From Shimia isoporae (GTDB lineage: Bacteria; Pseudomonadota; Alphaproteobacteria; Rhodobacterales; Rhodobacteraceae), in assembly GCF_004346865.1 (NCBI RefSeq), contig NZ_SMGR01000003.1, forward strand, positions 372,001-436,000: DNA of 64,000 nucleotides. Reading direction: 5' to 3'. Of this stretch, positions 27,836-63,787 are shown one piece after another; within the stretch, counting starts at the first letter, position 1; each line of letters begins with the position of its first letter. The notes beneath the pieces were generated by a model. The model was not told the DNA's origin. It worked only from the letters and a program-made list of their open reading frames with translations, and did no database searches. The translations under genes and the position numbers were made by a program.

Positions 27836-27879
27836 TGGCACCGACGTAATACCGACGTTTTGCAGACGCTTTGCAGACA
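27836..27879 (-). repeat. 44-bp element of four 11-bp units, copy A
   Basis: On the minus strand the units are TGTCTGCAAAG; CGTCTGCAAAA; CGTCGGTATTA; CGTCGGTGCCA. The YGTC cores recur at exactly 11 bases (plus positions of GAC: 27843, 27854, 27865, 27876). A related element lies at 63744-63787 on the plus strand, sharing an 18-base identical core. Both are between convergent genes. Confidence 0.75.
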
Positions 27880-27921
27880 CTCGATTCGCGCCCAAAACGC
27901 CAAGGATTAAAGAGCGAGGGA

Positions 27922-27951
27922 AAATCGGGCGGCCTATGCTGCCTGCCGCCC
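27922..27951 (-). terminator. Possible terminator after the enoyl-CoA hydratase gene
   Basis: Seven-base-pair stem GGGCGGC/GCCGCCC (27927-27933 with 27945-27951), 11-base loop, followed on the minus strand by GATTTTCCC; the T tract is short. Confidence 0.5.
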
Positions 27952-27962
27952 GCTCGGTACAT

Positions 27963-28580
27963 TCATGACCCGTTGCACAACGTTTTGATGCCGGTCGCGA
28001 TCTCCGGCTTGGCGGCCAATGTGTCCGCTGCAATCAATCGTGCCTCGTCCAGCAACTGATCACGCGCAATCAAACGGTCCACCAATCCGAAGGCAAGCGC
28101 TTCATCTGCAGGAATTTTCTGTCCGCCCATCAAGATCAGCTTGGTCCGCGCGGGGCCAATCAATGCGGCCATGCGCGCCGGATCGGACGGTTGCGGCAAA
28201 AAGCCAAGCTTCATCACAGGATAAAAGAACTTTGCGTCCGGCACCGAAATACGAATGTCACACGCCAGCGCCATTCCCATTGCCCCGCCCGCCAAAGTCC
28301 CGTTTAGCGCCGCAATGCTCAGCCCCGGCAGCGCCGCTACAGCACCTGACAACCGCTCCCAGACATCGCTGGTCGCAAGCCCCGCGCGCGCCTCTTCAAG
28401 ATCAGCGCCAGCCGAGAAAACCTTTCCAGTTCCTGTGATTACAAGGCCCCGTGCCTCCCGAGCCGCCTCGGCAATGTCTGCCAACTCGCTCAACATCGCA
28501 TAGGTTAGGGAGTTGGCCTTGTCGGGGCGGTTGATCGTGACAATCCAGAGCCCCGACGGTTCTTTGATCAGGTCGATCAT
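27963..28580 (-). CDS. Enoyl-CoA hydratase/isomerase family protein
   Basis: 205 residues of crotonase fold, shorter than the usual ~260 because the C-terminal trimerisation helices are reduced. Contains the CoA-binding and oxyanion segments: ITGTGKVFSAGADLEEARAG and ALNGTLAGGAMGMALACDIRI (oxyanion-hole glycines). An acidic residue in the VMKLGFLPQPSD region may be catalytic, but the typical Glu of hydratases is not obvious, so isomerase or other crotonase chemistry is possible. Overlaps the SDR gene by four bases (ATGA), forming a two-gene unit. Confidence 0.85.
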   Translation of the reverse strand: MIDLIKEPSGLWIVTINRPDKANSLTYAMLSELADIAEAAREARGLVITGTGKVFSAGADLEEARAGLATSDVWERLSGAVAALPGLSIAALNGTLAGGAMGMALACDIRISVPDAKFFYPVMKLGFLPQPSDPARMAALIGPARTKLILMGGQKIPADEALAFGLVDRLIARDQLLDEARLIAADTLAAKPEIATGIKTLCNGS

Positions 28581-29329
28581 ATAAGGCCGACCTTGCGGCG
28601 AATGTCTTCATCTCTCAGCGAGATTTCATCCCCCAGCCAATCATCAGCCGCGCTGGAGCACATCCAAAGCAGGCACTTCGCAGGCCATTCCGGCGGGATG
28701 TGATCCGTCCATTCCAGCTTGGACACAGGATTGATCCCGCTGGCTTTGATTTCCCTCTGCATTTGGGTCGCCACCGTGCCTGGGCTCAAACCGATGGCAC
28801 GAATGCCTTTTTCGCCAGCTTCTTTATGAACACAGCGCGTCAGCATGTTCACCGCGGCCTTGGACGCGCAATAATGGCTCCAGGCCTCCACCGGCCCATG
28901 AGCTGCACCTGAACTGATGGTGAGGATTGAGCCGCCGCCCGCCTGTTCCATCATCGGCATGACCGCACGCATCCCGTGATACACGCCTTTCAGATTGATA
29001 TCGATCACCTGTCCCCAATCGCTGGGATCCGACTGATCCAGATGAGAGATTGGCTCCACAACCCCTGCGTTATTGATGAGCACATCAACTCCGCCAAACT
29101 TGTCAACCGCCGCGGCAACTGCGGCTTCAACCTGCGCGTAGTCAGCAACATCGCAAGCCACCGCTAGCGCCGTATCACCGATTTCTTCGGCAATCGCATC
29201 AATCGCTGATCCGCTCCGCGCGGTCAGAACCACGTTGGCCCCCGCTGCCGCGAACGCGCGCGCCGCGCTTTCCCCAATTCCCCGGCTCGCGCCAGTGATC
29301 ATGACAGTTTTTCCAGAAACATCAGACAT
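28577..29329 (-). CDS. Short-chain dehydrogenase/reductase
   Basis: 250 residues, classical SDR. Cofactor motif TGASRGIG (12-19), NNAG (87-90 region), catalytic serine in TISSG (S139/S140), and YxxxK with Y153 and K157 in HYCASKAAV. It probably reduces or oxidises a 3-oxo/3-hydroxyacyl or similar alcohol with NADP(H), since an arginine follows the glycine motif (TARSG). Coupled with the downstream crotonase gene, suggesting a fatty-acid or acyl-CoA side pathway. Confidence 0.9.
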   Translation of the reverse strand: MSDVSGKTVMITGASRGIGESAARAFAAAGANVVLTARSGSAIDAIAEEIGDTALAVACDVADYAQVEAAVAAAVDKFGGVDVLINNAGVVEPISHLDQSDPSDWGQVIDINLKGVYHGMRAVMPMMEQAGGGSILTISSGAAHGPVEAWSHYCASKAAVNMLTRCVHKEAGEKGIRAIGLSPGTVATQMQREIKASGINPVSKLEWTDHIPPEWPAKCLLWMCSSAADDWLGDEISLRDEDIRRKVGLI

Positions 29330-29457
29330 ATCGCTCTCCCGCCTTGCCGTTTGCCCTGTGCTACTGCGCCAGGCGCGATTGGTCCAGTCTTTCGACTTGA
29401 CGACACGCCGCCTTAGACGGACTCTGTCGCGGACCTGTTCCAGTAAGGATTATTCAG

Positions 29458-30960
29458 ATGCGCATTTATCTCACTTCACGACTACTCGCTGGCTCGACAG
29501 CCATTGCCCTCTGCAGCGGGCCCGTCTTCGCCGACATCACGGCTCAAGATGCCTGGTCCAATTGGCGCGCGTATATGGAAGAATTCGGCTACGAAATTCA
29601 GGCCACGGAAGAAGCGGGAGCCGGATCTCTAGCGATCAAGGATCTGGTCGCCACAATGGACATGCCCGAGGAGAGCGGGCAGGCACAGGTCAACATGTCG
29701 GAGATGGTTTTCACCGAAAACGGTGAAGGAGCTGTCTCGATCACGATTGCAGACAGCGTCCCTTTCAGCTTCAGCATGGACGACGGCGATGAGCAGGTCA
29801 CTGCCAACATCATGATGACCCACGCGGGCCTCAGCACGATTGCCTCGGGCAACCCGGATGAGATCACATACGCCTATGGCGCTGAAAACGTGACGATGGC
29901 ACTGCAGGACCTGGTCGTTAATGGCGAGACCATTTCCGATTTCAGCGGTGAAATCGCCGTAAATGGTATCGACGGAACTACCCAATTCTCGCTGGGCGAG
30001 ACAATGACTTCCAAAGACAGCATGAGCGCCGAGCAACTCTCCGTGATGATCAAAGGCGTCGACCCTGACACCGGCGACAACGTGGACTTCGCGATGACCT
30101 TGGCTGGCCTGAATGGCACAAGTGAAGGCACAATGCCGCTCGGCAGCTTCACCAGCAACCCCAGCGCCATGTTCGCGGACAGTCTCGACCTGGTCGCAGA
30201 TTTCACGATGCAAGCAGCGCAAATCTCCGCGGCCTTCGAAGACGAAGAAGGCCCAGGTCAGCTCAATCTTACAACCGGTCCCGGGGCCGTTGACGTTGAG
30301 ATGACGGATGAACTCATGTCCTATGGCGGCAAAATAACCGACGTCGCAGCCTCAGTGGCTGCGCCGGACATTCCCCTTCCGATCGATGTAACTTTCGGCG
30401 AACTCGGATATGATTTTGCTGTTCCGCTAAAGGCATCAGAGGAAGCACAGGACTTCAACCTTGGTCTTAACTTTACGGATATCGGATTGTCTGAGTTTAT
30501 CTGGAACTTGTTCGATCCGGGCGCGATCCTACCGAGGGATGCGGCAACTCTGGTTCTCGGCCTTTCTGGCAAGGCAACCGTTTTCCAAGACCTTGTGACA
30601 CTTGACGAAAACATGTCCGAAGCGCCTGGCGAGTTGAACGCGTTGTCTTTGGACGAGCTGCAACTCAGCGCAGCAGGCGCAGATGTCTCCGGAACAGGAA
30701 GTTTCACTTTCGACAACACCGATCTGGTGTCGTTTGACGGGCTGCCACGTCCCGAAGGTGCCATCGATGTCAAGCTCAAAGGGATCAACGGCCTGATCGA
30801 CAAATTGATCCAAATGGGCTTGCTGCCCGAGGAGCAGGCTATGCCCGCGCGTATGATGCTCGGCATGTTCTCGGTTCCGGTTGGAGAAGACGAGCTGACG
30901 TCCCGCATCGAAATAAACGAGGCCGGACATGTCTTGGCCAACGGACAGCGCCTAAAATAA
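29458..30960 (+). CDS. DUF2125 family exported protein
   Basis: 500 residues with signal peptide MRIYLTSRLLAGSTAIALCSGPVFA. The body is a long run of amphipathic beta strands, rich in Thr/Asp/Glu, as in the DUF2125 family of Alphaproteobacteria, with ITAQDAWSNWRAYMEEFGYEIQATEEAG at the start and SRIEINEAGHVLANGQRLK at the end. Probably periplasmic or outer-membrane-facing; function unknown. The fold resembles lipid-channel/AsmA-type envelope proteins only loosely. Single gene with a strong terminator 22 bases after its stop. Confidence 0.85.
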   Translation: MRIYLTSRLLAGSTAIALCSGPVFADITAQDAWSNWRAYMEEFGYEIQATEEAGAGSLAIKDLVATMDMPEESGQAQVNMSEMVFTENGEGAVSITIADSVPFSFSMDDGDEQVTANIMMTHAGLSTIASGNPDEITYAYGAENVTMALQDLVVNGETISDFSGEIAVNGIDGTTQFSLGETMTSKDSMSAEQLSVMIKGVDPDTGDNVDFAMTLAGLNGTSEGTMPLGSFTSNPSAMFADSLDLVADFTMQAAQISAAFEDEEGPGQLNLTTGPGAVDVEMTDELMSYGGKITDVAASVAAPDIPLPIDVTFGELGYDFAVPLKASEEAQDFNLGLNFTDIGLSEFIWNLFDPGAILPRDAATLVLGLSGKATVFQDLVTLDENMSEAPGELNALSLDELQLSAAGADVSGTGSFTFDNTDLVSFDGLPRPEGAIDVKLKGINGLIDKLIQMGLLPEEQAMPARMMLGMFSVPVGEDELTSRIEINEAGHVLANGQRLK

Positions 30961-30982
30961 TCTTCGATTGAAACAACGATCC

Positions 30983-31011
30983 GGAGGCCGCCATGAGCGG
31001 CCTCCTTTTTT
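30983..31011 (+). terminator. Intrinsic terminator after the DUF2125 gene
   Basis: Perfect nine-base-pair stem GGAGGCCGC/GCGGCCTCC (30983-30991 with 30997-31005), five-base loop, six Ts. Confidence 0.92.
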
Positions 31012-31075
31012 GCTGGCGCCTTGCACCGGACCTTCCAGCGGTCTAACTCAGTTGAAACACCGAAACGAGGACACA

Positions 31076-32422
31076 ATGGCCCAAACTCCCGAAGCCCTGA
31101 CCAACCAGCTTTTGGACGCCGCAAAAGTCGCGGGAGCAGAAGCATGCGACGCTGTTGTGGTCGTAGGCACATCGTTGTCCATCGAGGTGCGCGAAGGCAC
31201 ATTGGAACAGGCTGAGCGCGCCGAGGGACTGGACCTAGGACTCCGTGTCCTTGTCGGAAAACGACAGGCCAACGTTTCGATCTCGGACGCTCGACCCGAC
31301 GCCATTCGGGAAATGGCTGAACGCGCCGTGGCCATGGCGAAGGAAGCTCCCGAAGATCCGTATGTGGGCTTGGCCGACCCGGGCCAGTTGGCGGCGGAAA
31401 GGGATGCAGGTTGCCTGGAGCTTTCGGACCCTTCCGCGGAACCTGACCCCTCGATGTTGCAGTCGGACGCACTTGCAACCGAAGCTGCGGCAAAGGCCGT
31501 TAATGGGGTCACCCAAGTGCAATCCGCCACGGCAGGTTATTCAGCCAACGATGTCTGGATAGCCGCCAGCAACGGCTTTTCCGGCGGATACCGACGCACC
31601 AGCCGTGGCACCTATTGTACTGCAATCGCAGGCAGTGGCGACGGTATGGAGCGCGACTATGACGGTGACAGCCGCATCTTTGCGTCTGACATGCGCGACC
31701 CCGCCGACATTGGTCAATCTGCCGGCGAACGGGCCGTGGGCCGCCTGCACGCGCGCCAACCAAAAACCGGTGCATTTCCTGTTCTGTTTGACGAACGAAT
31801 TTCCAGTTCGCTTCTCGGCCACCTTTTGGCCGCCGCGAACGGCGCGACAGTTGCAAGGGGATCAGGTTGGCTACGCGAAAAACTCGGGGAACAGGTTTTG
31901 CCGACCACGCTTTCTGTAATCGAAGATCCACACCGTCCGCGTGTCACCGGCTCTCGCATGTTCGATGCAGAGGGTCTGCCGACCCAACGCCGGGCAATCG
32001 TGGAAAACGGCGTTTTGACAGGTTGGACATTGGATCTCGCAAACGCGCGCAAGCTTGGCCTGAGCAGCACGGCGAACGCTGCACGCGGCGTATCAGGGCC
32101 ACCCTCTCCCTCCAATTGGAACGTCGCCTTGACGCAGGGAGAAAAGTCTCGAGACGCTTTGATCAAGGAAATGGGCACAGGCCTTTTGGTTACGAGCCTG
32201 ATTGGCTCAACCATCAATCCTAACACCGGTGACTACTCCCGTGGTGCGGCTGGCTTTTGGGTGGAAAACGGAGAACTGACGCACGCAATCAACGAATGTA
32301 CGATTGCTGGCAATCTGCACGATATGATGCGAACTCTTGTACCCGCCAACGACGCGCGCCAGCACCTGTCGCGACCGGTTCCATCGCTGCTGGTCGAAGG
32401 ACTCACACTTGCCGGATCCTGA
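31076..32422 (+). CDS. pmbA: TldD/PmbA (TldE) family metalloprotease-related protein
   Basis: 448 residues from the ATG at 31076 (ACGAGGA upstream). Matches PmbA/TldE: N-terminal LEQAERAEGLDLGLRVLVGKRQANVS, AMAKEAPEDPYVGLAD, and the C-terminal domain with GTGLLVTSLIGSTINPNTGDYSRGAAGFWVENGELTHAI. The HEXXH-type zinc site belongs to TldD; TldE subunits such as this lack it, and I see none here. With TldD it degrades or matures peptides (microcin B17, CcdA in E. coli). No tldD is in the window. Confidence 0.92.
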   Translation: MAQTPEALTNQLLDAAKVAGAEACDAVVVVGTSLSIEVREGTLEQAERAEGLDLGLRVLVGKRQANVSISDARPDAIREMAERAVAMAKEAPEDPYVGLADPGQLAAERDAGCLELSDPSAEPDPSMLQSDALATEAAAKAVNGVTQVQSATAGYSANDVWIAASNGFSGGYRRTSRGTYCTAIAGSGDGMERDYDGDSRIFASDMRDPADIGQSAGERAVGRLHARQPKTGAFPVLFDERISSSLLGHLLAAANGATVARGSGWLREKLGEQVLPTTLSVIEDPHRPRVTGSRMFDAEGLPTQRRAIVENGVLTGWTLDLANARKLGLSSTANAARGVSGPPSPSNWNVALTQGEKSRDALIKEMGTGLLVTSLIGSTINPNTGDYSRGAAGFWVENGELTHAINECTIAGNLHDMMRTLVPANDARQHLSRPVPSLLVEGLTLAGS

Positions 32423-33197
32423 TCTGAAGCTTCTGCTCGACGCCGCGGAGGAAGCCGGGCGCATCGCAACCCGCTACACCGGCTCCGAAGCAGAAACCTG
32501 GCACAAGCCAGACGGTGCAGGCCCCGTGACGGAGGCGGACCTCGCCGTCAACGATATGCTGGAAGCCACCTTGCGAGCAGCGCGTCCGGACTATGGTTGG
32601 CTCAGCGAGGAAAGCCACGATGGACCTGAGCGCCTCGAGGCAGCGCGTTGCTTTATTATCGACCCCATTGACGGTACCCGCAGCTTCATCGATGGCTCCA
32701 ACACGTGGGCGCACTCGCTCGCAATTGCAGAACATGGCAAAGTCACTGCCGCGGTGGTCTTCCTACCTTTGCGCGACCGAATGTACGCTGCGGCGCATGG
32801 GGCCGGCGCTACCCTGAACGGCACTCCGATCGCAGCTTCCCAACGAGCCGAAATTTGGGACGCCAACGTCTTGGCGGCACGACCCGTCATGCATTCGGAT
32901 CTCTGGCGCGCAAAAGCTCCAGGGTTCAAACTTGGCTACCGCCCCTCGTTGGCATACCGCCTCGCTCTTGTGGCTCAAGGCCGATTTGACGCAATGCTCA
33001 CTCTTCGCCCGACATGGGAATGGGATATTGCCGCGGGTGATTTGATTTTGCGCGAAGCTGGCGCGGCAGTTTCTGATCGAATGGCCGAGCCGCTCACTTT
33101 CAACAAAGCCGACCCGCGACTAAATGGCGTTGTAGCCGGAGGCAGCGCGTTGCATCGGCAAATCTGCGATGCGCTCGCTCCTGTTAACTCACTTTAA
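32409..33197 (+). CDS. Inositol monophosphatase family phosphatase (CysQ-like)
   Basis: 262 residues from a TTG at 32409, which has AAGGA seven bases upstream and overlaps the pmbA stop by 14 bases; the longer frame has no homology. Metal-binding motifs include the first glutamate in WLSEES and IIDPIDGTRSFIDG, and the second aspartate lies in TWEWDIAAGDLILREAGA. The family hydrolyses sugar phosphates or 3'-phosphoadenosine 5'-phosphate; alphaproteobacterial members next to pmbA are often called CysQ. Substrate is not decidable here. Confidence 0.85.
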   Translation: MPDPDLKLLLDAAEEAGRIATRYTGSEAETWHKPDGAGPVTEADLAVNDMLEATLRAARPDYGWLSEESHDGPERLEAARCFIIDPIDGTRSFIDGSNTWAHSLAIAEHGKVTAAVVFLPLRDRMYAAAHGAGATLNGTPIAASQRAEIWDANVLAARPVMHSDLWRAKAPGFKLGYRPSLAYRLALVAQGRFDAMLTLRPTWEWDIAAGDLILREAGAAVSDRMAEPLTFNKADPRLNGVVAGGSALHRQICDALAPVNSL

Positions 33198-33298
33198 CCA
33201 CTTGCCCCGATAGTTGAAACTGCATCAGGTCAGGCCTTGAGGCCCGTCGCCATCGCCTTTAGTTTGCGCGCAACGCAGCATCTCAAAGGAGATTGACG

Positions 33299-33541
33299 AT
33301 GGCGCAACGCCTGCACCTTGTATTCGGCGGCGAATTGATCGACCCGACAAAGACCGCTTTCAAAGACGTGGACGACATCCACGTTGTCGGTATTTTCCCC
33401 GACTACCAGTCGGCCTATGATGCGTGGAAAGCAGAAGCGCAGCGCACGGTAGACAACGCACACATGCGCTACTTCATAGCGCATCTTCATCGCCTGCGCG
33501 ACGAAGAGCTCGCCGCCTCCTCCACCGAAGAACTCGGCTAA
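33299..33541 (+). CDS. DUF4170 small protein
   Basis: 80 residues from the ATG at 33299, with AAAGGAG upstream. Sequence AQRLHLVFGGELIDPTKTAF and VVGIFPDYQSAYDAWKAEAQRTVDNAHMRYFIAHLHRL fit DUF4170, a small alphaproteobacterial family. It is regularly found directly before the Kdo transferase gene, as here (eight bases away), so a role in lipopolysaccharide core synthesis or its regulation is plausible but unproven. Confidence 0.88.
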   Translation: MAQRLHLVFGGELIDPTKTAFKDVDDIHVVGIFPDYQSAYDAWKAEAQRTVDNAHMRYFIAHLHRLRDEELAASSTEELG

Positions 33542-33549
33542 GGCCACCC

Positions 33550-34770
33550 ATGCCGCGCTCGCTCGGACTGGCAGCATATCTGGCCTTTGCACGCCGCCAG
33601 CCGCGCAAGCCGGTACCATTGGCGGCCGAACGACCCAAAGGCGAGCTGATCTGGCTACACTGTTCCGACCCCTCCCGCGCCCGAAGCCTTGCTCAACTTG
33701 GCCTTCGTCTGGCGAATCTGCGGGACGAGACCCAAAAGGTTCTGATCACCACTGCGTCCGGCACCCCGCCAGCCCAGAACCTTCCGGACGGGGCAATTTG
33801 GCAGGAGTGCCCAACTGAAAACCCCGACGACATCGAGGCTTTCCTCCACCATTGGCGACCGGACATGCTTATCTGGCTTGGCAAGCTACTGCGCCCGGCC
33901 CTGACAGTTGCAAGTTCCAAGCGCATGCCTTGCATGTTGGTGGAACCCAATGCACCAACTCTGGAAAACAAACGCTGGCGCGTAGGCCCTGAACCAATTC
34001 GGGCAACCTTGGCGCATTTCAACGTAATTCTGGCCGACACCAAGGCCATTGTCGCACGCTTCCGCTCGATGTTGCCCGAGGACGTCGAGGTCCACCCGGG
34101 AGGCCTCCTGACCGAAGAACCCCCTGCGTTGGTACACGTGGAAAGCGACCTTGAGGAGCTTCGTGATGCTTTGAAGGGACGCCCTGTTTGGTTGGCCGCA
34201 CGCGTGCATCCAGACGAGCTTCCGGCTATTCTCGCTGCGTTCCGTTCGGCGCTTCGGCTGTCACATCGGTTGCTGCTTGTCATCGTCCCGGATAGGGCCG
34301 ACCACGCAACGGCCATCAGGGATCAGGTGCATGCACAGGATTGGCGCGTAGCGAATTGGGACGACGGGGCATTTCCCGAGGAAGATACCCAAATTCTCCT
34401 AACGGAGAGTCCTGGTGAATTGGGGCTGTGGTACCGGATCGCGCCGGTTAGCTTTGTTGGGTCTTCGCTGATTTCCGGCCACGGCGGTCGCGATCCATTG
34501 GAACCTGCTGCGCTCGGGTCTGCCGTTCTCTATGGGCCGTCCGTACGTAACCATCTGGACAGTTACACGCGGCTGGCCAACGCAGGAGCCGCGCGCATCG
34601 TCCGTGATGCCGACAGCCTCGCCACTGCGCTCATCCAGCTGGCAGCGCCCGACCAACTGGCAGCCATGGCCCACGCCGGTTGGCAGGTCATTTCCGAAAC
34701 GGCCGAAGTGACCGACGCCATCGTCGCGCACGCTCAACGGCTTCTGGACGGTGACGAGGTCGTAGGATGA
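33550..34770 (+). CDS. waaA: 3-deoxy-D-manno-octulosonic acid transferase
   Basis: 406 residues from the ATG at 33550. GT-B (GT30) enzyme adding Kdo to lipid A. It is shorter and more divergent than E. coli WaaA (425 aa), with the N-terminal membrane anchor reduced to [13 protein letters not shown]. Recognisable parts: an acceptor-side [47 protein letters not shown], and the nucleotide-binding end with [29 protein letters not shown]. Overlaps lpxK by four bases; DUF4170-waaA-lpxK form one operon. Confidence 0.88.
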
Positions 34771-35771
34771 AACCCCCTGTATTCTGGAACAATGCGCCAG
34801 ACGCCCCCGGTTGGAAATCCACGCTGCTGGCTCCGCTTGGCAGTCTCTACGCCTCGGCCACACGACGTCGCATTGCCAAATCGGGCAGTGCCTACCACTC
34901 GCCAGTACCCGTGATCTGCATCGGCAACCTGAACGCCGGTGGCACAGGCAAAACACCAACCGCCATCGCTCTTGTTCAACACCTACAGGCGAGAGGGTTT
35001 TCACCGCATGTCGTGTCCCGCGGATACGGCGGAAGCCTCCACGGCCCGGTAGAAGTACATGAACGCACCCACACCGCTGACCAAACCGGCGACGAACCCC
35101 TCCTGCTTGCCGCCTTCGCCCCGACCTGGGTGTCAAAAGACCGCGCAAAGGGTGTCAAAGCCGCGACCGAGGCAGGAGCCAAGGTAATTTTACTTGATGA
35201 CGGATTTCAAAATCCGTCCGTATACAAGGCCGCATCTATCGTCGTGGTAGATGCAAAACGCGGTTTCGGGAACGGGCGATGCATCCCTGCCGGACCACTG
35301 CGAGAACCCGTTGGTGAAGGGCTAAAGCGCGCAGATGTCGTACTTTCAATCGGCGATGCTCCAGCGCAAAAAGCTTTCTCCGAAACATGGGGGCATGCGA
35401 TTTCGCTACCTCACGTTCAGGGCGAGTTAGTGCCATTACCGACAGGCATGGACTGGACGCAAACACCCTTCTTGGCCTTTGCCGGCATTGGTCATCCGGA
35501 GAAATTCTTTGCTACATTGCGAAGCCTCGGTGCCACCATCCTTCATGCCGAAGCTCTGGACGACCACCAACCGCTTTCCCCGCAACTCCTCACCCGTCTT
35601 TCGATGGACGCCCAACGCCTTGGCGCTCAGCTGGTGACCACCGAAAAAGACGCCGTTCGTTTGCCACAAGACATGCGCCGTGAAGTTTTGACAGTCCCCG
35701 TGAGACTTAACATTTCGGATTGGTCAGAAGTGGATACGATGCTGGATCGGGTGTTGCCCGAGCAACCGTGA
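34767..35771 (+). CDS. lpxK: Tetraacyldisaccharide 4'-kinase
   Basis: 334 residues. Phosphorylates the lipid A disaccharide at the inner membrane. The Walker [12 protein letters not shown] (residues 53-63) and the lipid-side VVSRGYGG and [12 protein letters not shown] (with the DDGFQ catalytic motif) are clear, as are [11 protein letters not shown] and [10 protein letters not shown] near the end. Starts inside the waaA stop (ATGA). Its last codons are part of a transcription terminator. Confidence 0.94.
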
Positions 35772-38118: not shown

Positions 38119-38177
38119 AGCCGTTGCGAGGACATCGGGAACGGCTCATACTCCGGACAAATTCGATGGAGTCGCCC

Positions 38178-54719: not shown

Positions 54720-54722
54720 GTC

Positions 54723-55940: not shown

Positions 55941-57358
55941 ACACATCCTTATCCGGCAAGACTGTTATCGATTGGGAGGCTTTCGCCTGCGCCCTTGATC
56001 CAGTGGAAACCATTTCAGAAACCTCGACGGTAAAACGCCGTTCCCGCGACTTCTTCTGGTATTCACCGATTTTGAATGCACAACTGAAGCGCAGTTTTGG
56101 TGATTTGGTGGCGTTGCCCCAATCTATTGATGAAATCGCGCAGTGTTTGCGCGTGGCGCATGCTTTTGACGCGCCGATTACTATTCGCGGTGGCGGAACC
56201 GGAAACTATGGCCAGGCCGTTCCGATGGACGGCGGACTCATTTTGGACATGACGGCGTTTAGCGACATTCTCGACATCGGAGATGGCTTTGTTACCGTTC
56301 AGGCTGGCGCCAACATCAAGGAAGTGAACGAGGCCTTGAACGCCAAAGGATGGGAGCTTGCGATTTTCCCTTCCACTCAGGACATAGCGACAATCGGTGG
56401 TTTTGTAGGCGGTGGAAGCTCTGGCATAGGCTCTGTCGCAAACGGCATGTTGCGTGACCCCGGAAATATCCTGTCCTTGCGTGCCATGTCTGTCACTGCT
56501 GCTCCCGAGGAACACCTTTTCGAAGGAGATGCCATCAACCACATGCACCATGCTTGGGGTCTCAATGGCGTGATCACAGAGGTGACGTTACGCACTGTGC
56601 CACACCGTGACTGGATCGGCTGTATGGCGACTTTCGACAGTTATGAGGAGTGCTTTTCGGCAGGTTATGCTCTCGCACAAAGTGCTGAAGTTGGCCGCAA
56701 ACTTGTTTCGACGGTGGATGCGCGCATCTGTGCTTACTTTCCAAAACTGGAGGGGCACATTCGCCCGGAGAAACACCTGATGGTCTCCTTGGTGCCGCGC
56801 GAAGATCTTGATGCATACCGGTCGTTGGTTGCCATGCAATCAGGATCGGTCGACCTCGCGATGAGCGAAGCAGAGCTCGCGGCCGCCAAACTGCCCCATG
56901 TGTTTGAATTCTCCTATAACCACACCACACTTCAAGTGCTCAAGGCCGACCGGTCTGCCACTTACCTTCAAGTCGGAGTGCCCACGCCGCCAGACCCTGC
57001 CAAAGTCGCGGCGCTCGCTCCAAAACTGGGCGATGACGTTTGGATGCACCACGAATTCGCGCTTCTCAACAAAGAGATTGTGTCTTTTGATCTTCCGATA
57101 ATCTGGTTCACCGACGAACCCCGCTTGCGGGAAATTGAAGCGATCTACGAGAAGGATGGTTTCGCGGTCTACGATGCCCACATCTGTATGGTCGAAGGCG
57201 GAGGCCTAAAGAACGCCGATTACCGTCATCTCGCTTGGAAAAAGCGGATGGATCCAAAGGGGCTATTGAACTCTGCCAAATCGCGCGAGTGGAAAAACGT
57301 CGCACACTTGAGTCCAGAGCAGATCGAAGAACTCATTCCGGAGGATGCCGATGTCTAA
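55937..57358 (+). CDS. FAD-binding (PCMH-type) oxidoreductase
   Basis: 473 residues. FAD-binding domain of the vanillyl-alcohol-oxidase type (~50-220): ITIRGGGTGNYGQAVPMDGGLILDM and IATIGGFVGGGSSGIGSVANGMLRD, with the pyrophosphate loop. The substrate domain at the C-terminal half is divergent. Such enzymes oxidise hydroxy acids or amine/alcohol side chains with FAD. Coupled to the deaminase upstream and overlapping the TauD gene by eight bases, so probably acts in the same pathway. Confidence 0.85.
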   Translation: MNTSLSGKTVIDWEAFACALDPVETISETSTVKRRSRDFFWYSPILNAQLKRSFGDLVALPQSIDEIAQCLRVAHAFDAPITIRGGGTGNYGQAVPMDGGLILDMTAFSDILDIGDGFVTVQAGANIKEVNEALNAKGWELAIFPSTQDIATIGGFVGGGSSGIGSVANGMLRDPGNILSLRAMSVTAAPEEHLFEGDAINHMHHAWGLNGVITEVTLRTVPHRDWIGCMATFDSYEECFSAGYALAQSAEVGRKLVSTVDARICAYFPKLEGHIRPEKHLMVSLVPREDLDAYRSLVAMQSGSVDLAMSEAELAAAKLPHVFEFSYNHTTLQVLKADRSATYLQVGVPTPPDPAKVAALAPKLGDDVWMHHEFALLNKEIVSFDLPIIWFTDEPRLREIEAIYEKDGFAVYDAHICMVEGGGLKNADYRHLAWKKRMDPKGLLNSAKSREWKNVAHLSPEQIEELIPEDADV

Positions 57359-58235
57359 CTTCGACACATCACCGCTTTCACCCGAGTTCGGCGTTGAGAT
57401 TCACGACCTCCAGCTTGCCGACGTGAAAGCCAATTCACTGTACCCCGAGATACGCGCACTCTTCGAGGAGCACTCTGCGTTGCTGTTTCGCGGTCAGTCC
57501 CTGAGTGACGAACAACATATGGCTTTGGCACGTCTGTTCGGGAGAATCGAAGATCGCAATGCCGACGAACGAAAACCCGACGAAGCCTTCCAGGTGCCCG
57601 AAGTGTCGAATATTCGACAGGACGGGTCGGTAACGGACCAGATGGACCTGCACACGCTCAACCTACAATCTAACATGCTCTGGCACTCAGACAGCACCTT
57701 CATGCCCGTACCGGCGCTGACCAACATTCTTGTGGGTCGCGTTGTGACGTCCAGTGGCGGCGCCACCGAACTTGCCTCTACGCGAGCAGCTTGGCGCGAG
57801 ATGCCTGAGAAACTCGCAGAGAAGATCCGCGGCCGGGCTATCTGGCACCACTATGCCACCTCCCGCGCGAAGATTTCAGAGACACTCGCAAAGCTACCCA
57901 TGTTCCACAAATGGCCAGCACAAAAATGGAAAGCGGTCTTGACGAATCCGCTTAACCACACGGAAAGTTTATATATTGCCTCGCACGCTTACGCCGTGGA
58001 AGGCTATACTAAGGAGGAAAGCCAGACGCTGCTGGAAGAGCTGACTGCGTTTTGCACGCAGGATCGCTTCACCTACAGCCACCGCTGGCAAGAGGGGGAC
58101 GTTCTGATCTGGGACCAACGCGCCGTTATGCACAGGGGAACGCCCTGGCCGTGGCATGAACCTCGAAAACTGACCAGCCTCTGCGTCTCCATAGGCCCCG
58201 AAGACGGGCTGAATGAGATGCGACCCAAGGAATAA
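57351..58235 (+). CDS. TauD/TfdA family 2-oxoglutarate-dependent dioxygenase
   Basis: 294 residues from the ATG at 57351 (GGAGG six bases upstream; ATG 57345 also in frame). Fe(II) ligands H112 and D114 in MLWHSDSTFMP and the distal histidine in AVMHRGTPWPW; the 2-oxoglutarate arginine lies in HEPRKLTSLCVS. Overlaps the FAD oxidase gene by eight bases. Hydroxylates or dealkylates a small organic acid, sulfonate or phenoxy compound; the cluster context suggests a nitrogen-containing substrate. Confidence 0.9.
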   Translation: MSNFDTSPLSPEFGVEIHDLQLADVKANSLYPEIRALFEEHSALLFRGQSLSDEQHMALARLFGRIEDRNADERKPDEAFQVPEVSNIRQDGSVTDQMDLHTLNLQSNMLWHSDSTFMPVPALTNILVGRVVTSSGGATELASTRAAWREMPEKLAEKIRGRAIWHHYATSRAKISETLAKLPMFHKWPAQKWKAVLTNPLNHTESLYIASHAYAVEGYTKEESQTLLEELTAFCTQDRFTYSHRWQEGDVLIWDQRAVMHRGTPWPWHEPRKLTSLCVSIGPEDGLNEMRPKE

Positions 58236-58322
58236 CAAACCGGCGGGTTACCACTGCTCGCCAAAACAAGCGCAGCAACGTCTGCATCCCGGGAGTACCC
58301 GACTACAACAGAGAGGAAGCAA

Positions 58323-59984
58323 ATGACCTTTAAGACACGTACTGGCAAGCCGATGCCAAAGGTTATCGTCGACCAGGCCCACAAGGTGGGCGAGGACGAA
58401 GTGAACCGCCGCGAATTCCTCGCGCTTGCAAGCGCCTTTGGCGCGACCGCAGCCACCGCTTATGGCATGCTGGGCATGGCGGCACCCGCCTATGCGGACG
58501 GGCACGCCAAAGACGGAGGCACCGTGCGCATCCAAATGGAAGTGCGCGCCCTCAAAGACCCGCGCACCTATGACTGGTCGCAGATCGCCAACTTCTCGCG
58601 CGGCTGGCTTGAGTATCTCGTAGACTATGGCCGCGATGGGACCTTTGGTCCTGGGCTTCTGGAAAGCTGGGAGATTTCCGAAGATGCGAAGACCTATACT
58701 CTTAACGTCCGTAAGGGTGTGAAGTGGAACAATGGCGACGACTTCACCGCAGAGGACGTTGCGCGCAACATCGCCGGTTGGTGTGAAAAAGAAGTTGAAG
58801 GCAACTCGATGGCCGGACGTTTCGCGACGCTTATCGACGAAGCCACTGGCAAGGCGGTCGACGGCGGCATCGAAGTGGTCGACAGCCATACCGTAAAGCT
58901 GAACCTGCCGAAGCCGGACATCTCGCTGATTCCGGGAATGGCCGACTATCCAGCCGCAATCGTGCACAGCTCGCACAACCCGGACGACATGCTGTCCAAC
59001 CCTGTTGGTACAGGTCCATACCTGCCTGAAAGCCTCGAGGTCGGTGTCAAAGCTGTTCTCAAGCGCAACGACGGGCACACATGGTGGAACGCCGGTAACG
59101 GCGCTTGGATGGAGTCCATCGAGTACATCGACTACGGCACCGATCCTGCGGCATGGGTTGCCGCTGCGGAGTCTGAGGAAGTCGACATGCTCTATTCCGT
59201 GGACGGCGAGTTCATCGACCTCGTGTCGTCGCTTGATGGCTGGGTAGAAAACGAGATTGTGACCGCAGCGACCATCGTCATCCGCCCGAACCAACTGGCA
59301 GAAGTCGACGGAAAACAGCCATATGCAGACCCCAAAGTCCGCAAAGCAATCGCGATGGCGGTAGACAACAACGTTCTGCTGGAACTCGGATACGACGGCC
59401 GAGGCCAGGTCGCAGAAAACCACCACGTTGGTCCGATGCATCCGGAATACGCACCTCTGCCCGCTCTCAAGCATGATCCGGCTGGCGCAAAGGCGCTTCT
59501 GGACGAAGCAGGCATGGGCGATTTCGAGATGGAAATCATCTCGATTGACGATGCATGGCGCAAGAATACAACCGACGCTGTCGCGGCTCAGCTGCGCGAC
59601 GCTGGTTTCAACGTCAAGCGGACCATCCTGCCAGGTTCCACCTTCTGGAATGACTGGGCGAAGTATCCATTTAGCTCCACCAACTGGAACCACCGCCCCC
59701 TCGGCGTTCAGATTTGGGCGCTTGCCTATCGTTCCGGCGAAGCTTGGAACGAGTTCGGATACTCTAACCCCGAGTTCGACGCGAACCTTGAGATGGCGCT
59801 GGCAACAGCCGACATCGAGAAACGTCGCGAGCTGATGGCAAAAGGTGAGGCGATGCTCCAAGAAGACGCTGTCACCATTCAGCCTTACTGGCGTTCGCTC
59901 TACAACCACACGGTTGAAGGCCTCGAAGGTGGTGCTCACCACATCTCGTTCGAGATCCACCCAGCCAAGCTGCACTGGACCTGA
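58323..59984 (+). CDS. Tat-exported ABC transporter substrate-binding protein (SBP_bac_5)
   Basis: 553 residues with GAGAGGAAG before the ATG. Twin-arginine signal VNRREFLALASAFGATAATA (RR at 29-30) after an unusually long basic N-region. Oligopeptide/nickel-type binding protein: LLESWEISEDAKTYTLNVRKGVKWNNGDDFTAEDVA, VVDSHTVKLNLPKPD, NPVGTGPYLPES, DPKVRKAIAMAVDN and the C-terminal AKGEAMLQEDAVTIQPYW. Binds the compound fed to the operon enzymes, probably as the cytoplasmic folded/Tat-dependent form. No permease or ATPase genes follow. Confidence 0.9.
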   Translation: MTFKTRTGKPMPKVIVDQAHKVGEDEVNRREFLALASAFGATAATAYGMLGMAAPAYADGHAKDGGTVRIQMEVRALKDPRTYDWSQIANFSRGWLEYLVDYGRDGTFGPGLLESWEISEDAKTYTLNVRKGVKWNNGDDFTAEDVARNIAGWCEKEVEGNSMAGRFATLIDEATGKAVDGGIEVVDSHTVKLNLPKPDISLIPGMADYPAAIVHSSHNPDDMLSNPVGTGPYLPESLEVGVKAVLKRNDGHTWWNAGNGAWMESIEYIDYGTDPAAWVAAAESEEVDMLYSVDGEFIDLVSSLDGWVENEIVTAATIVIRPNQLAEVDGKQPYADPKVRKAIAMAVDNNVLLELGYDGRGQVAENHHVGPMHPEYAPLPALKHDPAGAKALLDEAGMGDFEMEIISIDDAWRKNTTDAVAAQLRDAGFNVKRTILPGSTFWNDWAKYPFSSTNWNHRPLGVQIWALAYRSGEAWNEFGYSNPEFDANLEMALATADIEKRRELMAKGEAMLQEDAVTIQPYWRSLYNHTVEGLEGGAHHISFEIHPAKLHWT

Positions 59985-60004
59985 TCCGGTCAGCGCACGG
60001 AACT

Positions 60005-60031
60005 CGGGCCGCCTTCGGGCGGCCCGTTTTT
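60005..60031 (+). terminator. Intrinsic terminator closing the catabolic operon
   Basis: Perfect nine-base-pair stem CGGGCCGCC/GGCGGCCCG (60005-60013 with 60018-60026), stable TTCG tetraloop, five Ts. It ends the operon right after the binding-protein gene, confirming that no permease genes follow in the transcript. Confidence 0.93.
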
Positions 60032-60047
60032 ATGATGGGGAACCACA

Positions 60048-60530
60048 ATGGACATGCTGCTCTTTGCGCAAACAGTCTCGCTCCTGTTGCCAACGCTCTG
60101 GCTGACGACTGGCGTGCGGGACAATATACTTTATCCGCCGGTCAACGAAGTGTTCACCGCACAGGTTCTCACAATGGAGCGGATGAAAGAAGATTATCCT
60201 GAGGAATATGCCCGGGTTGCGCACAGAGCCATCCATAACCGAGCATGGCAGAAGGGACTGTTCCGCTTGATCGTCGCCGCCGAGGTAACAACCGTAGTGG
60301 TCATGTGGGTCGGCGTTATTCTTCTTGCTTTGGCTACCCTTGGTATCGCTCTGCCTTCAATGGCACGCGGGGCCGCATTGATGGGCGCTCTTATGTTTAC
60401 CGGCGTCTGGGCAATGTTCACCGTGGTTGGCAATCATTTCAGCTATTGGTTCTGCCACGAAGGCGCACAGAACACGCATTTTCAACTGCTGCTCTGGGGC
60501 CTCGGCAATATGATCTTGCTGAACCTTTGA
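60048..60530 (+). CDS. DUF2165-like small integral membrane protein
   Basis: 160 residues with about four hydrophobic segments: LFAQTVSLLLPTLWLTTG, LIVAAEVTTVVVMWVGVILLALATLGI, GAALMGALMFTGVWAMFTVVG and LLLWGLGNMILLNL. The NILYPPVNEVFTAQVLTM and GNHFSYWFCHEG segments fit DUF2165 proteins, usually described as predicted small integral membrane proteins. Function unknown. It follows the operon terminator by 16 bases, so it needs its own promoter. Convergent with znuA. Confidence 0.78.
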   Translation: MDMLLFAQTVSLLLPTLWLTTGVRDNILYPPVNEVFTAQVLTMERMKEDYPEEYARVAHRAIHNRAWQKGLFRLIVAAEVTTVVVMWVGVILLALATLGIALPSMARGAALMGALMFTGVWAMFTVVGNHFSYWFCHEGAQNTHFQLLLWGLGNMILLNL

Positions 60531-60546
60531 CGGTTCCGCAAATCCC

Positions 60547-61617
60547 TTAGTGATCGTGGTCCAGACAAGCCGCGAAGTTATCCGCTAGATTGCTCAGAAC
60601 CGCATAATACAGACCCGGCCCAATTTCCTGGGTGGCGCCATGAGGATCAACCTCAGCCGTCTTGATATCCAAGCCTTCGGAAACAGAGGCGACAATCTCG
60701 TCAGGGAATTGCGGTTCGCTGAAGACACACTCGATTTTGTTGTCACTTAGAGTAGTCCGCACTTCGCGGAGCCGCGCAGCGGAGGCCGACGAAGCATCTC
60801 CAACCCGGATAGCGCCGGCAGCCTTAAGGTCAAACCGTTTTTCAAAATACTGGTAGGCATCGTGGAAAACGACAAAGCGGCTGGCGTGGACCGGTTCCAA
60901 TTTCGCCGCTATGTCCGCTTCGAGCACATCAAGTTCCGCCTGCGCACTCTTTGCGTTCTCCGCATATGTCGCGGCATTGTCAGGGTCGATTTCAGAAAGT
61001 TCGGCGGCAATCAAACCTAGCCAAACACGGGCGTTTTCAGGGTCCAACCAAGCATGGCTGTCGGTGCCGGAATGATCGTGATGATCATGGTCATCATGCC
61101 CAGCGTGATCTTCGTCACCATGTTCTTCATGTTCATCGTGACCGGCATGTTCTTCATCACCGTGATCATCGTGATCATCATGACCGGCATGCTCCTCGTC
61201 ACCGTGATCGTCGTGTTCAGCATGATCGTCATGGCCATGATCATCGTCGGATGCGACCTCAAAGTCGTCCGAAGAACGATAGTCGTGAGCCACGGTGCCT
61301 TCTTGGTTCAATAGCGCCATGTGGTGCGCATCACCGGCCAGAGACTCGATTGTTTTTTCAAGCTGAGGGGTCAGTTTTGGCCCAATCCAGACGACCAGAT
61401 CCGCGTCTTGCAGGGAACGGGCTTCGGACGGACGCAGTGCATAGCCGTGCGGTGAGACACCCGGCTTGATCAGTAAATCAGGGGTTCCGACACCTTCCAT
61501 GACCTTTGAAACAAGGCTATGGACCGGCGCGATGTCTGTCGTTACACGGGGCGCTTCGGCTTGTGCAGCGATGCCGGCACCCAGAAGGGCAACGAAGCTT
61601 GCGGGGAGAATTCTCAT
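60547..61617 (-). CDS. znuA: Zinc ABC transporter substrate-binding protein
   Basis: 356 residues. Signal peptide MRILPASFVALLGAGIAAQA. Zinc ligands from family position: H33 in PVHSLVSKV, H57 in SPHGYALRP, the helical-segment histidine in FVVFHDAYQYFEKRF, and the C-terminal IECVFSEPQFP and EVDPHGA. Between H57 and SHAWLDPEN (H188) lies a His/Asp/Glu-rich loop (residues ~124-183) with ~25 histidines, which in ZnuA proteins captures periplasmic zinc. Part of this loop is a 14-residue tandem repeat. Divergent from zur-znuCB and presumably shares the Zur box. Confidence 0.94.
   Translation of the reverse strand: MRILPASFVALLGAGIAAQAEAPRVTTDIAPVHSLVSKVMEGVGTPDLLIKPGVSPHGYALRPSEARSLQDADLVVWIGPKLTPQLEKTIESLAGDAHHMALLNQEGTVAHDYRSSDDFEVASDDDHGHDDHAEHDDHGDEEHAGHDDHDDHGDEEHAGHDEHEEHGDEDHAGHDDHDHHDHSGTDSHAWLDPENARVWLGLIAAELSEIDPDNAATYAENAKSAQAELDVLEADIAAKLEPVHASRFVVFHDAYQYFEKRFDLKAAGAIRVGDASSASAARLREVRTTLSDNKIECVFSEPQFPDEIVASVSEGLDIKTAEVDPHGATQEIGPGLYYAVLSNLADNFAACLDHDH
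61084..61209 (-). repeat. 42-bp coding tandem repeat in the ZnuA histidine loop
   Basis: Three copies of a 14-residue unit close to DHGDEEHAGHDDHD (residues about 137-178), varying at D/E positions. Expansion or contraction of this repeat would change the number of zinc-binding histidines. On the opposite strand it creates a spurious hydrophobic frame. Confidence 0.75.
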
Positions 61618-61665
61618 CAGGGCACCTTTGTATTAATGTGACGCGATGACTGGCACTAATGAAAA

Positions 61666-61680
61666 TGTTATATTATATCA
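61666..61680. promoter_or_regulatory. Zur box candidate between znuA and zur
   Basis: Fifteen-base imperfect palindrome TGTTATATTATATCA, centred in the 87-base divergent gap. It resembles the alphaproteobacterial Zur consensus with GTTATANNATAAC-like arms. It lies 25 bases before the zur start and 49 bases before the znuA start, able to repress both directions. Confidence 0.75.
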
Positions 61681-61704
61681 AGTCGAAATCTGTCGGAGGT
61701 CCAA

Positions 61705-62178
61705 ATGGATAGTATCGGGTTTGCACAACACGATCACGCTGCCTGTGTAGGCAGCGGCATGCAGGCTGCCGAAGAGGTCTGCGCAGCCAAAGGCTTGCGG
61801 CTGACCAAAGGACGACGGCGCGTGCTGGAAATTCTATTGCAGGAACACCGCGCGATGGGGGCCTATGACATTCTTGGCCTTCTCAGCGAAGAGGGCTTTG
61901 CCGCGCAGCCTCCTGTGGTCTATCGCGCATTGGATTTCCTGACTGAAAATGGCTTTGTGCACAAAATCGAAAAGCTCAACGCATACGTAGCCTGTACTCA
62001 CCCTCAGGATGATCACGCCCCGGTTTTCCTGATTTGTCGGGACTGCGAGACGGTTGCCGAAACAGGCATGTCCATGCGCGCTAGCCTTGGCGCAGTTGCC
62101 AAGGAAATGGGTTTCAAGATCGAAAGCACAGTGGTCGAGGCCGAAGGCCTGTGCCCCTCGTGTCAGCCCGCAACATGA
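61705..62178 (+). CDS. zur: Fur-family zinc uptake regulator Zur
   Basis: 157 residues. Winged helix with LTKGRRRVLEILLQEHRAMGAYDIL and the recognition part PPVVYRALDFLTENGFVHKIE, then the dimerisation domain. The structural zinc cysteines are CRDC and CPSC. Zur, rather than Fur or Irr, is indicated by the znuC and znuB genes in the same operon and by the box upstream. An N-terminal His-rich piece (AQHDHAAC) precedes the usual start of homology. GGAGG precedes the ATG. Overlaps znuC by four bases. Confidence 0.93.
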   Translation: MDSIGFAQHDHAACVGSGMQAAEEVCAAKGLRLTKGRRRVLEILLQEHRAMGAYDILGLLSEEGFAAQPPVVYRALDFLTENGFVHKIEKLNAYVACTHPQDDHAPVFLICRDCETVAETGMSMRASLGAVAKEMGFKIESTVVEAEGLCPSCQPAT

Positions 62179-62930
62179 GGTTGGTCACCATAAAAGACAT
62201 GTCGGTGAAGCTGGGCGCGCATCAGGCTTTGTCTCATGTGGACCTGACCATCGACAAAGGCGAGATTGTCACGATTGTCGGGCCGAACGGCTCGGGCAAG
62301 TCGACCCTGTTGCGCAGCGTGATCGGCGCGATCCGGCCGGACAGCGGGACAGTGCTGAAAGCGGCGGACATGAAAATTGGGTATGTCCCTCAGAGCCTCT
62401 CAATTGATCCCACTCTCCCTTTGACCGCAGGCCGGTTTCTGAGCCTGCCAAATCGGCGTACCAAGATCGCCGCTCTAGCGGCACTTACGCAAGCCGGCGT
62501 CGAAGACATCGCCGATCGGCCAATGTCTGGCCTGAGCGGTGGTCAATTCCAGCGTGTTTTGCTGGCAAGGGCCCTCATGGACGAACCTGATCTCCTTATT
62601 CTGGACGAGCCCACGACAGGTCTCGACCAGCCAGGATCAGCCGATTTCTACACCCAGATCGAGCGGGTACGCCGCGATACAGGCGCTGCAATACTCATGG
62701 TAAGCCACGAGTTGCATGTGGTCATGAGCGCGTCCGATCGCGTGGTCTGTCTCAACGGGCACGTCTGCTGCCACGGTGCACCCGAAGTGGTGGCCTCTGC
62801 TCCGGAATATCGCGCTTTGTTTGGCACAGGCACGCACGGTGCGTTGGCGCTGTACCGCCACGAACATGATCACCATCACCACGATGGGGACGCCTGCGAC
62901 CACGACCATCAGCATCACGAAAGCCACTGA
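62175..62930 (+). CDS. znuC: Zinc ABC transporter ATP-binding protein with His-rich tail
   Basis: 251 residues from the ATG overlapping the zur stop (ATGA). ABC ATPase: Walker A GPNGSGKS, Q-loop YVPQSL, signature LSGGQ, Walker B LLILDEP, switch histidine MVSHEL. The last ~25 residues are extremely His/Asp-rich (RHEHDHHHHDGDACDHDH plus QHHESH), a tail absent from most ZnuC proteins that could bind zinc on the cytoplasmic side. Energises zinc uptake with ZnuA and ZnuB. Confidence 0.95.
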   Translation: MRLVTIKDMSVKLGAHQALSHVDLTIDKGEIVTIVGPNGSGKSTLLRSVIGAIRPDSGTVLKAADMKIGYVPQSLSIDPTLPLTAGRFLSLPNRRTKIAALAALTQAGVEDIADRPMSGLSGGQFQRVLLARALMDEPDLLILDEPTTGLDQPGSADFYTQIERVRRDTGAAILMVSHELHVVMSASDRVVCLNGHVCCHGAPEVVASAPEYRALFGTGTHGALALYRHEHDHHHHDGDACDHDHQHHESH

Positions 62931-62931
62931 T

Positions 62932-63726
62932 ATGTTTGATGATTTTCTGGTGCGCGCGATTTTCGCAGGTATCGGCGTCGCTCTTGCAGCGGCACCGTTG
63001 GGATGCTTCGTCGTCTGGCGTCGCATGGCCTACTTCGGTGATGCAACCGCACACGCCGCAATCCTTGGCGTGGCTTTCTCGCTGGCCTTTGGGCTATCGA
63101 TTTTCATCGGCACGCTCACGGTTGCTCTGGCTATGGCGCTCACCGTCACAACGCTTGCCGGTCGGGGATATGCGATGGACACATTGCTTGGTGTGCTGGC
63201 GCATAGTGCGTTAGCCTTTGGCCTGGTTGCAGTGTCGCTTCAGCAAGGAATTCGCATTGACCCGATGTCGTACCTGTTCGGGGACATCCTCGCCGTGTCA
63301 AAGAGCGACCTTGTCGTAATCTGGCTGGGAGCAATCGGTGTGGTTGCCTTGATGATCTGGCGATGGCAGGGCCTTTTGACGTCTACGCTCAATCCGGATC
63401 TTGCCTATGCCAGCGGCATTGATCCCAAACGCGAGCAACTTGTCCTGACGATCGGACTTGCCGTGGTTGTGGCTGTGGCAATCAAGGTCGTTGGCGCCTT
63501 ACTTATTGGGGCTTTGATTGTGATCCCGGCGGCGGCGACGCGGGCGGTGACACGATCGCCGGAAGCAATGGCAGCCAGTGCGGCACTGGTTGGTGCGGCG
63601 TCGGCCTGCGGAGGCTTGTGGCTCAGCTACACAATGGACACACCCGCGGGCCCATCCATCGTTTGCGTGGCAGCCATGTTCTTCGCCGCAACCAATCTTG
63701 TGGCGAGAATCGGGTTAACACGCTGA
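62932..63726 (+). CDS. znuB: Zinc ABC transporter permease
   Basis: 264 residues from the ATG at 62932, one base after the znuC stop. ABC-3 family permease with eight or so helices, starting FDDFLVRAIFAGIGVALAAAPLGCFVVWRRMAYFGDATAHAAILGVA, where FGDATAH is the family's metal-channel histidine motif, and the coupling region KVVGALLIGALIVIPAAATRAVTRSPEAM. Forms the membrane channel of ZnuABC. Last gene of zur-znuC-znuB. Convergent with the serine hydrolase; no stem-T terminator is visible in the 100-base gap, which instead holds the 44-bp repeat. Confidence 0.94.
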   Translation: MFDDFLVRAIFAGIGVALAAAPLGCFVVWRRMAYFGDATAHAAILGVAFSLAFGLSIFIGTLTVALAMALTVTTLAGRGYAMDTLLGVLAHSALAFGLVAVSLQQGIRIDPMSYLFGDILAVSKSDLVVIWLGAIGVVALMIWRWQGLLTSTLNPDLAYASGIDPKREQLVLTIGLAVVVAVAIKVVGALLIGALIVIPAAATRAVTRSPEAMAASAALVGAASACGGLWLSYTMDTPAGPSIVCVAAMFFAATNLVARIGLTR

Positions 63727-63743
63727 AATCCGGCCGAATTCCC

Positions 63744-63787
63744 TGTCAGTAAAACATCTGCAAAACGTCGGTATCGCATCGGTGTTC
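63744..63787 (+). repeat. 44-bp element of four 11-bp units, copy B
   Basis: Plus-strand units: TGTCAGTAAAA; CATCTGCAAAA; CGTCGGTATCG; CATCGGTGTTC, with the Y-R/G-TC cores at 63744, 63755, 63766 and 63777. By eye 34 of 44 positions equal copy A (27836-27879, minus strand), including an uninterrupted 18-base stretch (63757-63774). It lies between convergent znuB and the serine hydrolase gene. Confidence 0.75.

Follow-up and report, generated by a model that had tools for sequence, protein, structure and literature searches.

Two intergenic gaps in a 64,000-nucleotide stretch of the Shimia isoporae genome (C3:372001-436000, the window in what follows; nine contigs, 4,229,391 bp in all) each hold a 44-bp array of four 11-bp units, and the question this locus raises is what such an element is and what might read it. 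The initial annotation of the window had reported 34 matching positions out of 44 between the 44-mers, an identical 18-mer common to both, and four units at 11-bp spacing in each, all of which was borne out, as was the convergent arrangement of both gaps (gene calls and Pfam assignments of the neighbors). Its argument that an 18-base identity is unlikely to arise by chance is not decisive taken alone, since the window holds other shared 18-mers, which stem from tandemly repeated genes; the longest inverted match listed for the window is the pair of arrays (50 nt, 78%). What excludes chance is the rest of the genome, where the array proved to be a repeat of about 100 copies oriented by replication.

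Across the genome there are 24 exact occurrences of the 17-base core GTCTGCAAAACGTCGGT and 165 when up to three mismatches are allowed; a reversed-pattern control gives 94. We used two profiles with rough expectation (E) values: R1, a sequence-only profile built from 31 S. isoporae copies, which favors that genome's own copies, and R2, whose 59 source copies span several genera and include 14 from S. isoporae but neither window copy. R1 gives 115 matches in the genome at E ≤ 1; merging those below 0.05, of which there are 101, leaves 99 elements, 70 of them strong (E ≤ 1e-4), and R2 gives 100 matches at E ≤ 1e-4. Within the window, R2 returns exactly the two arrays at E values up to 5, so that the initial annotation overlooked none visible to R2. 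The profile matches and the reversed-pattern control rule out chance or a common word, and the suspected dispersed repeat is thereby real, with 99 merged copies where two had been noted; neither outcome named at the start as a refutation (two copies only, or a common word) came about.

The architecture is nearly constant. A mechanical scan of the 70 strong copies gave 61 with four units; the others have three (5 copies), five (3), or six (1). Four units are also usual in most relatives. Their usual order is [TCG]GTCTGCAAAA, CGTC[TG]G[CT]AAAA, CGTCGGTATT[AG], and CGTCGGTG, with unit types swapped in some copies; the unit core is GTC[TG]G[CT]A, so that each 44-bp site consists of four head-to-tail 11-bp modules, with an 11-bp alternation of AT-rich and GC-rich steps. 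The fixed spacing and the unit number held near four fit the earlier suggestion of a multimerizing protein on one face of the DNA. Five stretches folded as DNA (arrays and two long forms) did no better than shuffles (z from -0.67 to 2.08) and formed no hairpin, and seven array loci had no match in Rfam; a structured RNA was rejected on these results. Spread on plasmids was rejected too, two array queries (151 and 241 bases) having found nothing in the plasmid collection. One exact array pattern was not found among viral contigs (the phage collection was not searched), and searches of the open-access literature, subscription papers not being covered, listed no paper whose title and opening of the abstract describe this element; six words composed of array letters had no match there either.

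Array orientation follows replication and not the flanking genes, a more telling pattern, which the initial annotation did not see. With the GC skew of the surrounding 8 kb as proxy for replication direction, 62 of the 70 strong copies lie on the leading (G-rich) strand, including 56 of the 57 with skew above 0.05; the full set of 99 has 88 on that strand and, above the same skew, 78 of 80. On contig C1, where skew switches near 1.48 Mb, plus-strand copies at E < 0.05 number 31 left of the switch and 4 right of it, and minus-strand copies 3 and 18. Called genes are 51.5% leading (435/844 in 94 stretches). Of the copies in co-directional gaps, 19 have the direction of the genes and 30 the opposite one (P = 0.15); genes therefore do not set array orientation, and the same split gives no support to termination insulation, one of the roles initially proposed, as the main function. 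Single unit words outside arrays show little strand bias (16:22, 32:36, 16:12, and 20:19; CGTCGGTA, 14:6). Among relatives, which include five other genera, the leading strand carries 46 of the 50 best-scoring copies of four congeners (G007, G013, G014, and G017), 17 of 19 and 11 of 11 best-scoring copies in G320 and G181, 28 of 30 in G307 (best 30 of 78 copies), and 26 of 30 in G332 (best 30 of 46). Pooled agreement with skew is 212/240, and ten further loci from other genera outside this pool, four of them from G307 and G332, agree without exception (10/10).

The arrays also keep their places. We compared 50 top-match copies from the same four congeners with S. isoporae regions covering all 99 copies; 45 share a gap with an S. 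isoporae copy, every one in the same orientation, and 5 do not. The 45 map to 36 different S. isoporae places (three of the 45 are one array inside a gene), and in G014 alone 26 of 28 copies occupy a shared gap. Over 42 hand-picked same-gap pairs of the 45 (L173, L174, and L205 left out), array identity averages 0.70, versus 0.67 for arrays from different gaps, and flank identities average 0.66 and 0.62, versus 0.56. From the shared places and the near-equal array identity it therefore follows that the place and form of a site are kept while its letters drift; species and genera each show their own sequence flavors of the array. The shared positions may also stem from gene conversion or from repeated insertion into one place. 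One array locus of Shimia sp. SK013 is identical over 3,040 bases to that of G007, a member of the same genus. As a separate observation, one four-unit array lies antisense inside a 372-codon gene (L119:4001-4035, at C1:2337253) and is 0.91 identical to the array at the same place in G007, G017, and G014.

A search of relatives, proposed at the outset, located copies in congeners and in other genera of the family. Presence within the genus is all or nothing: 22 of 25 genomes have 26 to 100 R2 matches (well-populated species carry roughly 75 to 100 copies per genome), G004 has one, and G008 and G012 have none. In the one orthologous gap aligned in these three genomes the array is absent, and G008 measures 1,518 bases over the homologous stretch against 1,562, a shortfall of 44. 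Such a distribution is expected if a reader protein was lost together with its sites.

We judge the chances about even that the array is a dispersed functional protein-binding landmark, serving as a direction signal for a machine that travels from origin to terminus. Four modules at 11-bp spacing, their number held, point to four DNA-reading domains, which the modules would seat on one helix face; the reader would most simply be one tetramer or one four-domain protein. Polarity and conserved places suggest that what reads the site is something moving from origin to terminus, and the bound protein might give a direction signal or form a one-way obstacle to the replisome, a structural maintenance of chromosomes (SMC) complex, or a DNA translocase, such that the chromosome arms would be handled with the right polarity. 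A more specific version, the counterpart of an oriented insulator, is rather doubtful: a dedicated tetrameric or four-domain protein on some 100 polar 44-bp sites about 45 kb apart would let SMC loop extrusion, a translocase, or a fork pass one way only, giving the chromosome a readable compass, and protein and sites would be acquired or lost together within a genus. Sequence systems that inform a bacterial cell of the direction of its chromosome are, as far as is known, few, and the arrays suggest an undescribed way of marking it. Their wholesale absence from three of 25 congeners offers a natural comparison for finding the reader; if confirmed, the arrays would represent a polar chromosome code of a new kind, on which barriers that stop forks or SMC complexes from one side only could be studied.

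A working model for binding to four repeats by a tetramer may be found, by analogy, in CarH. According to two reports (PMC9304148, PMC8156234), CarH of B. megaterium occupies its four tandem 11-bp direct repeats as a tetramer sitting on one face of the DNA. CarH repeats, which come in fours or threes, read nnnnTnnACAn and are located at promoters. The operators of CarH and CarA, MerR-type B12-based photoreceptors, thus share with our arrays the tandem 11-bp direct repeat, with four units in 61 of the 70 strong S. isoporae arrays. They differ in their letters: nnnnTnnACAn occurs in none of the units of 58 and once in 12 of the 70 S. isoporae arrays, and not at all in 141 and once in 9 of 150 others. 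They differ also in their setting, since arrays number about 100 per genome, lie mostly past stop codons, and are oriented by replication. Of the 85 intergenic S. isoporae copies, 5 lie in divergent gaps. Because the CarH letters are absent, we do not file the array as a CarH operator, and that identity was rejected. The array is a misfit to the tested features of CarH operators, of FtsK-orienting polar sequences (KOPS) and architecture imparting sequences (AIMS), and of repetitive extragenic palindromes (REPs), the latter two taken up below. Plasmid centromeres of the ParR/parC type are arrays of 11-bp direct repeats as well; these are single plasmid loci beside their own genes, in contrast to some 100 chromosomal sites.

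Several observations weigh against a functional landmark. GC skew is a proxy for replication direction, used in place of a located origin and dif. Where skew is weak (≤0.05), only 6 of 13 strong copies agree with it, no better than chance, and 7 of the 8 disagreeing strong copies fall in this class. The eighth, at C1:1160472 (L093), opposes a skew that is locally clear; G013 and G014 each have an identically oriented copy in that gap, so this wrong-way site is conserved. The second window copy is on the plus strand, opposing the trend of its contig (12 minus and 2 plus copies at E < 0.05); skew around it is near zero. In G366 only 22 of 30 copies (best 30 of 75) are on the leading strand. Few places are shared across genera (2 of 19 in G320, 1 of 11 in G181, and none of ten other loci), one being the gap at C2:352722, flanked by genes for a Vut_1 transporter and an RF-1-domain protein, which holds a copy in S. 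isoporae, G320, and G181. Occurrence in the family is patchy, with R2 matches at E ≤ 1e-5 in 34 of 394 genomes and 33 of 393 genera; across the class, 3 of 190 genomes match, all within the family (both scans used strict filters, which may miss divergent flavors). Even spacing, which counts in favor of a landmark, is suggestive and not general: the 78 copies of single-contig G307 are more even than random (coefficient of variation 0.66 versus 0.98; fraction 0.0004), and on C1 the fraction is 0.033 for 44 copies and 0.004 for 56, but evenness is not significant for the 40 strongest C1 copies (0.15) or in G366 (0.098). Finally, the near-identical mosaic copies of G366 look mobile.

The strongest rival is a mobile or mosaic repeat inserted with strand bias, and we regard it as possible, if on the unlikely side. 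Such a repeat, resembling REPs or bacterial interspersed mosaic elements (BIMEs) or moved by enzymes of the IS200/IS605 type, would enter the single-stranded lagging-strand template, thereby gain its polarity, and remain wherever it is harmless, with no host function. Strand bias is known for IS200/IS605-type insertion, according to PMC6006769, and the orientation of the arrays is likewise biased by replication strand, insertion itself not having been observed. Patchy occurrence, species flavors, gaps past stop codons, the clean absence at one gap in G004, G008, and G012, and the few places common to genera all suit a mobile repeat, as do the composite copies of G366. In its long form, of about 130 bp, the array is accompanied by boxes at set distances (GAATC near -40, TTAA[CT] near -30, an A-tract near -10, TTAA near +20, and GCGCG near +30) in G332, G320, G366, and part of the congeners. 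The sequence between these boxes carries little information (1.4 to 1.5 bits per column in the array, 0.2 to 0.4 in the flanks). TTAA[CT] scores 21 hits in the -30s over 30 loci in G332, 13 over 19 in G320, 18 over 50 in congeners, 6 over 70 in S. isoporae, and 2 over 30 in G307. G366 has many near-identical copies in which a GTTAAC..GCGCGCGGTGG module flanks the array on both sides; its loci L333 to L357 are mosaic intergenic repeats of CGAATC..GGTTAACGCCTTATTTT, the array, and GTTAAC..GCGCGCGGTGG, found on both contigs. At G332 loci L287 to L316, the fourth unit mostly ends in CGTCGGACCC, and GTTAAC boxes lie on either side of the array. REPs and BIMEs are similarly short, dispersed, intergenic, and often in convergent or co-directional gaps, and the CGTC tag of alphaproteobacterial REPs resembles the unit start; these REPs are, according to PMC3733652, palindromes with 8- to 9-bp stems and usually paired, whereas the array is a direct repeat of four with no hairpin and is oriented by replication. 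Nor were the subterminal hairpins of IS200/IS605-type elements seen in the folds of arrays and two long forms. Against a mobile repeat stand the lack of a hairpin, the unit number held at four, and the 45 of 50 congener copies with the same gap and orientation despite eroded flanks; a mere relic is argued against because places are conserved beside such flanks.

Placement relative to genes, by calls from a home-made gene caller, bears on a further alternative. By gap type, the 99 copies divide into 31 convergent, 49 co-directional, and 5 divergent; a further 13 overlap a called gene, and 1 lacks a called neighbor on one side. Convergent gaps make up 11% of the intergenic bases in the fetched stretches, co-directional gaps 56%, and divergent gaps 33%, and against this background the enrichment and depletion among the 85 intergenic copies have P near 1e-9. 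The association with convergent gaps initially drawn from two copies thus holds as a preference (31/85) and fails as a rule, 49 of 85 being co-directional. A stop codon lies within 100 bp of 44 of the 49 co-directional copies; the tendency is less marked elsewhere, as in G332, whose 29 classified copies split into 9 convergent, 12 co-directional, and 8 divergent. Neighboring genes are ordinary and show no functional theme across nine gaps by eye and six proteins by Pfam. We think it improbable, yet worth stating, that the array is a strong polar gyrase (topoisomerase) site, whose phased AT/GC steps would wrap DNA, with copies placed where positive supercoils build up, behind genes and in front of forks. 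The 11-bp alternation, the placement past stop codons and in convergent gaps, and the closeness of the long form, at about 130 bp, to the gyrase wrap length favor this, but the conserved GTC[TG]G[CT]A is far more specific than a bendability pattern requires, and three congeners have no arrays though gyrase is universal.

Leading-strand polarity also invites comparison with the KOPS, AIMS, and Chi type of guide, read directly by FtsK or by a RecBCD/AddAB-type enzyme. AIMS, as described in PMC5993296, are octamers in thousands of copies that rise toward the terminus. The arrays share with KOPS and AIMS a chromosomal sequence oriented by replication with leading-strand bias; in their case the biased object is a 44-bp four-module array in about 100 copies with no rise toward the terminus. 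Copies per 200-kb bin on C1 run 7, 3, 4, 5, 2, 4, 4, 1, 4, 3, 4, and 3, with no rise toward the skew switch, whose bin holds 1 copy (E ≤ 1e-3). A separate KOPS-like word, GGGNAGGG, is biased 69:12 in the S. isoporae stretches fetched (L067 to L166) and is a likely KOPS of this genome. In the same stretches GGGCAGG is the most leading-biased heptamer (151:23). With such a word present, no increase toward the switch, and a 44-bp array every 45 kb or so being too long and too rare, a directly read guide is quite improbable. A transcript-end signal (a Rho loading site or 3' untranslated region element with YC every 11 nt) is scarcely credible and was rejected. In its favor, copies lie past stop codons, some directly behind intrinsic-terminator look-alikes identified by eye, and each of the two window copies runs in the direction of a gene upstream of it; but of the 49 co-directional copies 30 oppose their genes and 19 run with them, orientation follows skew, and Rfam gives no match.

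The features of the window are collected in the table. The minus strand of copy 1 is the one expected from its minus-skewed surroundings, and the G014 array at L200 occupies the same gap as copy 2 in the same orientation. Tail boxes of the GTTGC/GCGCG kind are weak in S. isoporae.

Table. Arrays, accompanying boxes, neighboring genes, and other features of the window (positions count from its first base)
Feature	Position	Strand	Support or remark
Copy 1, four-unit 44-bp array	27836..27879	minus	R2 E 3.9e-15
Copy 1 units	27869-27879, 27858-27868, 27847-27857, 27836-27846	minus	
Copy 2, four-unit 44-bp array	63744..63787	plus	R2 E 1.4e-8
Copy 2 units	63744-63754, 63755-63765, 63766-63776, 63777-63787	plus	
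TTAAT box, ~30 bp before copy 1	27906..27910	minus	Box type enriched in the -30s in relatives, rare in S. isoporae
TTAAC box, ~29 bp before copy 2, within final znuB codons	63715..63719	plus	Box enrichment in relatives
GAATC immediately ahead of the TTAAC box of copy 2	63707-63711	plus	
TTAA box, 20 bp past copy 2	63807..63810	plus	Box enrichment in relatives
GTGCGTTGCA, shared word downstream of copy 1, possible tail box	27797..27806	minus	
GCGTGCGTTGCA, shared word downstream of copy 2, possible tail box	63815..63826	plus	
HNH-type gene, stop 43 bp from copy 1	27463..27792	plus	HNH E 5.8e-4, just under curated cut-off
Enoyl-CoA hydratase gene, stop 83 bp before copy 1	27963..28580	minus	
znuB-type ABC transporter gene, stop 17 bp before copy 2	62776..63726	plus	ABC-3; listed start, true one probably later
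Beta-lactamase-family serine hydrolase gene, 3' part, facing copy 2	63827..64000	minus	PF00144; extends beyond window
SorX small RNA family, two tandem copies	9885-9956, 10038-10107	minus	153 bp apart, 91% alike over 46 nt
Porin_4 genes, three in tandem	13877-17310	minus	Repeat period ~1.25 kb

The two SorX copies, which sit away from the arrays between a response-regulator gene and an Exo_endo_phos gene, are the only Rfam matches in the window.

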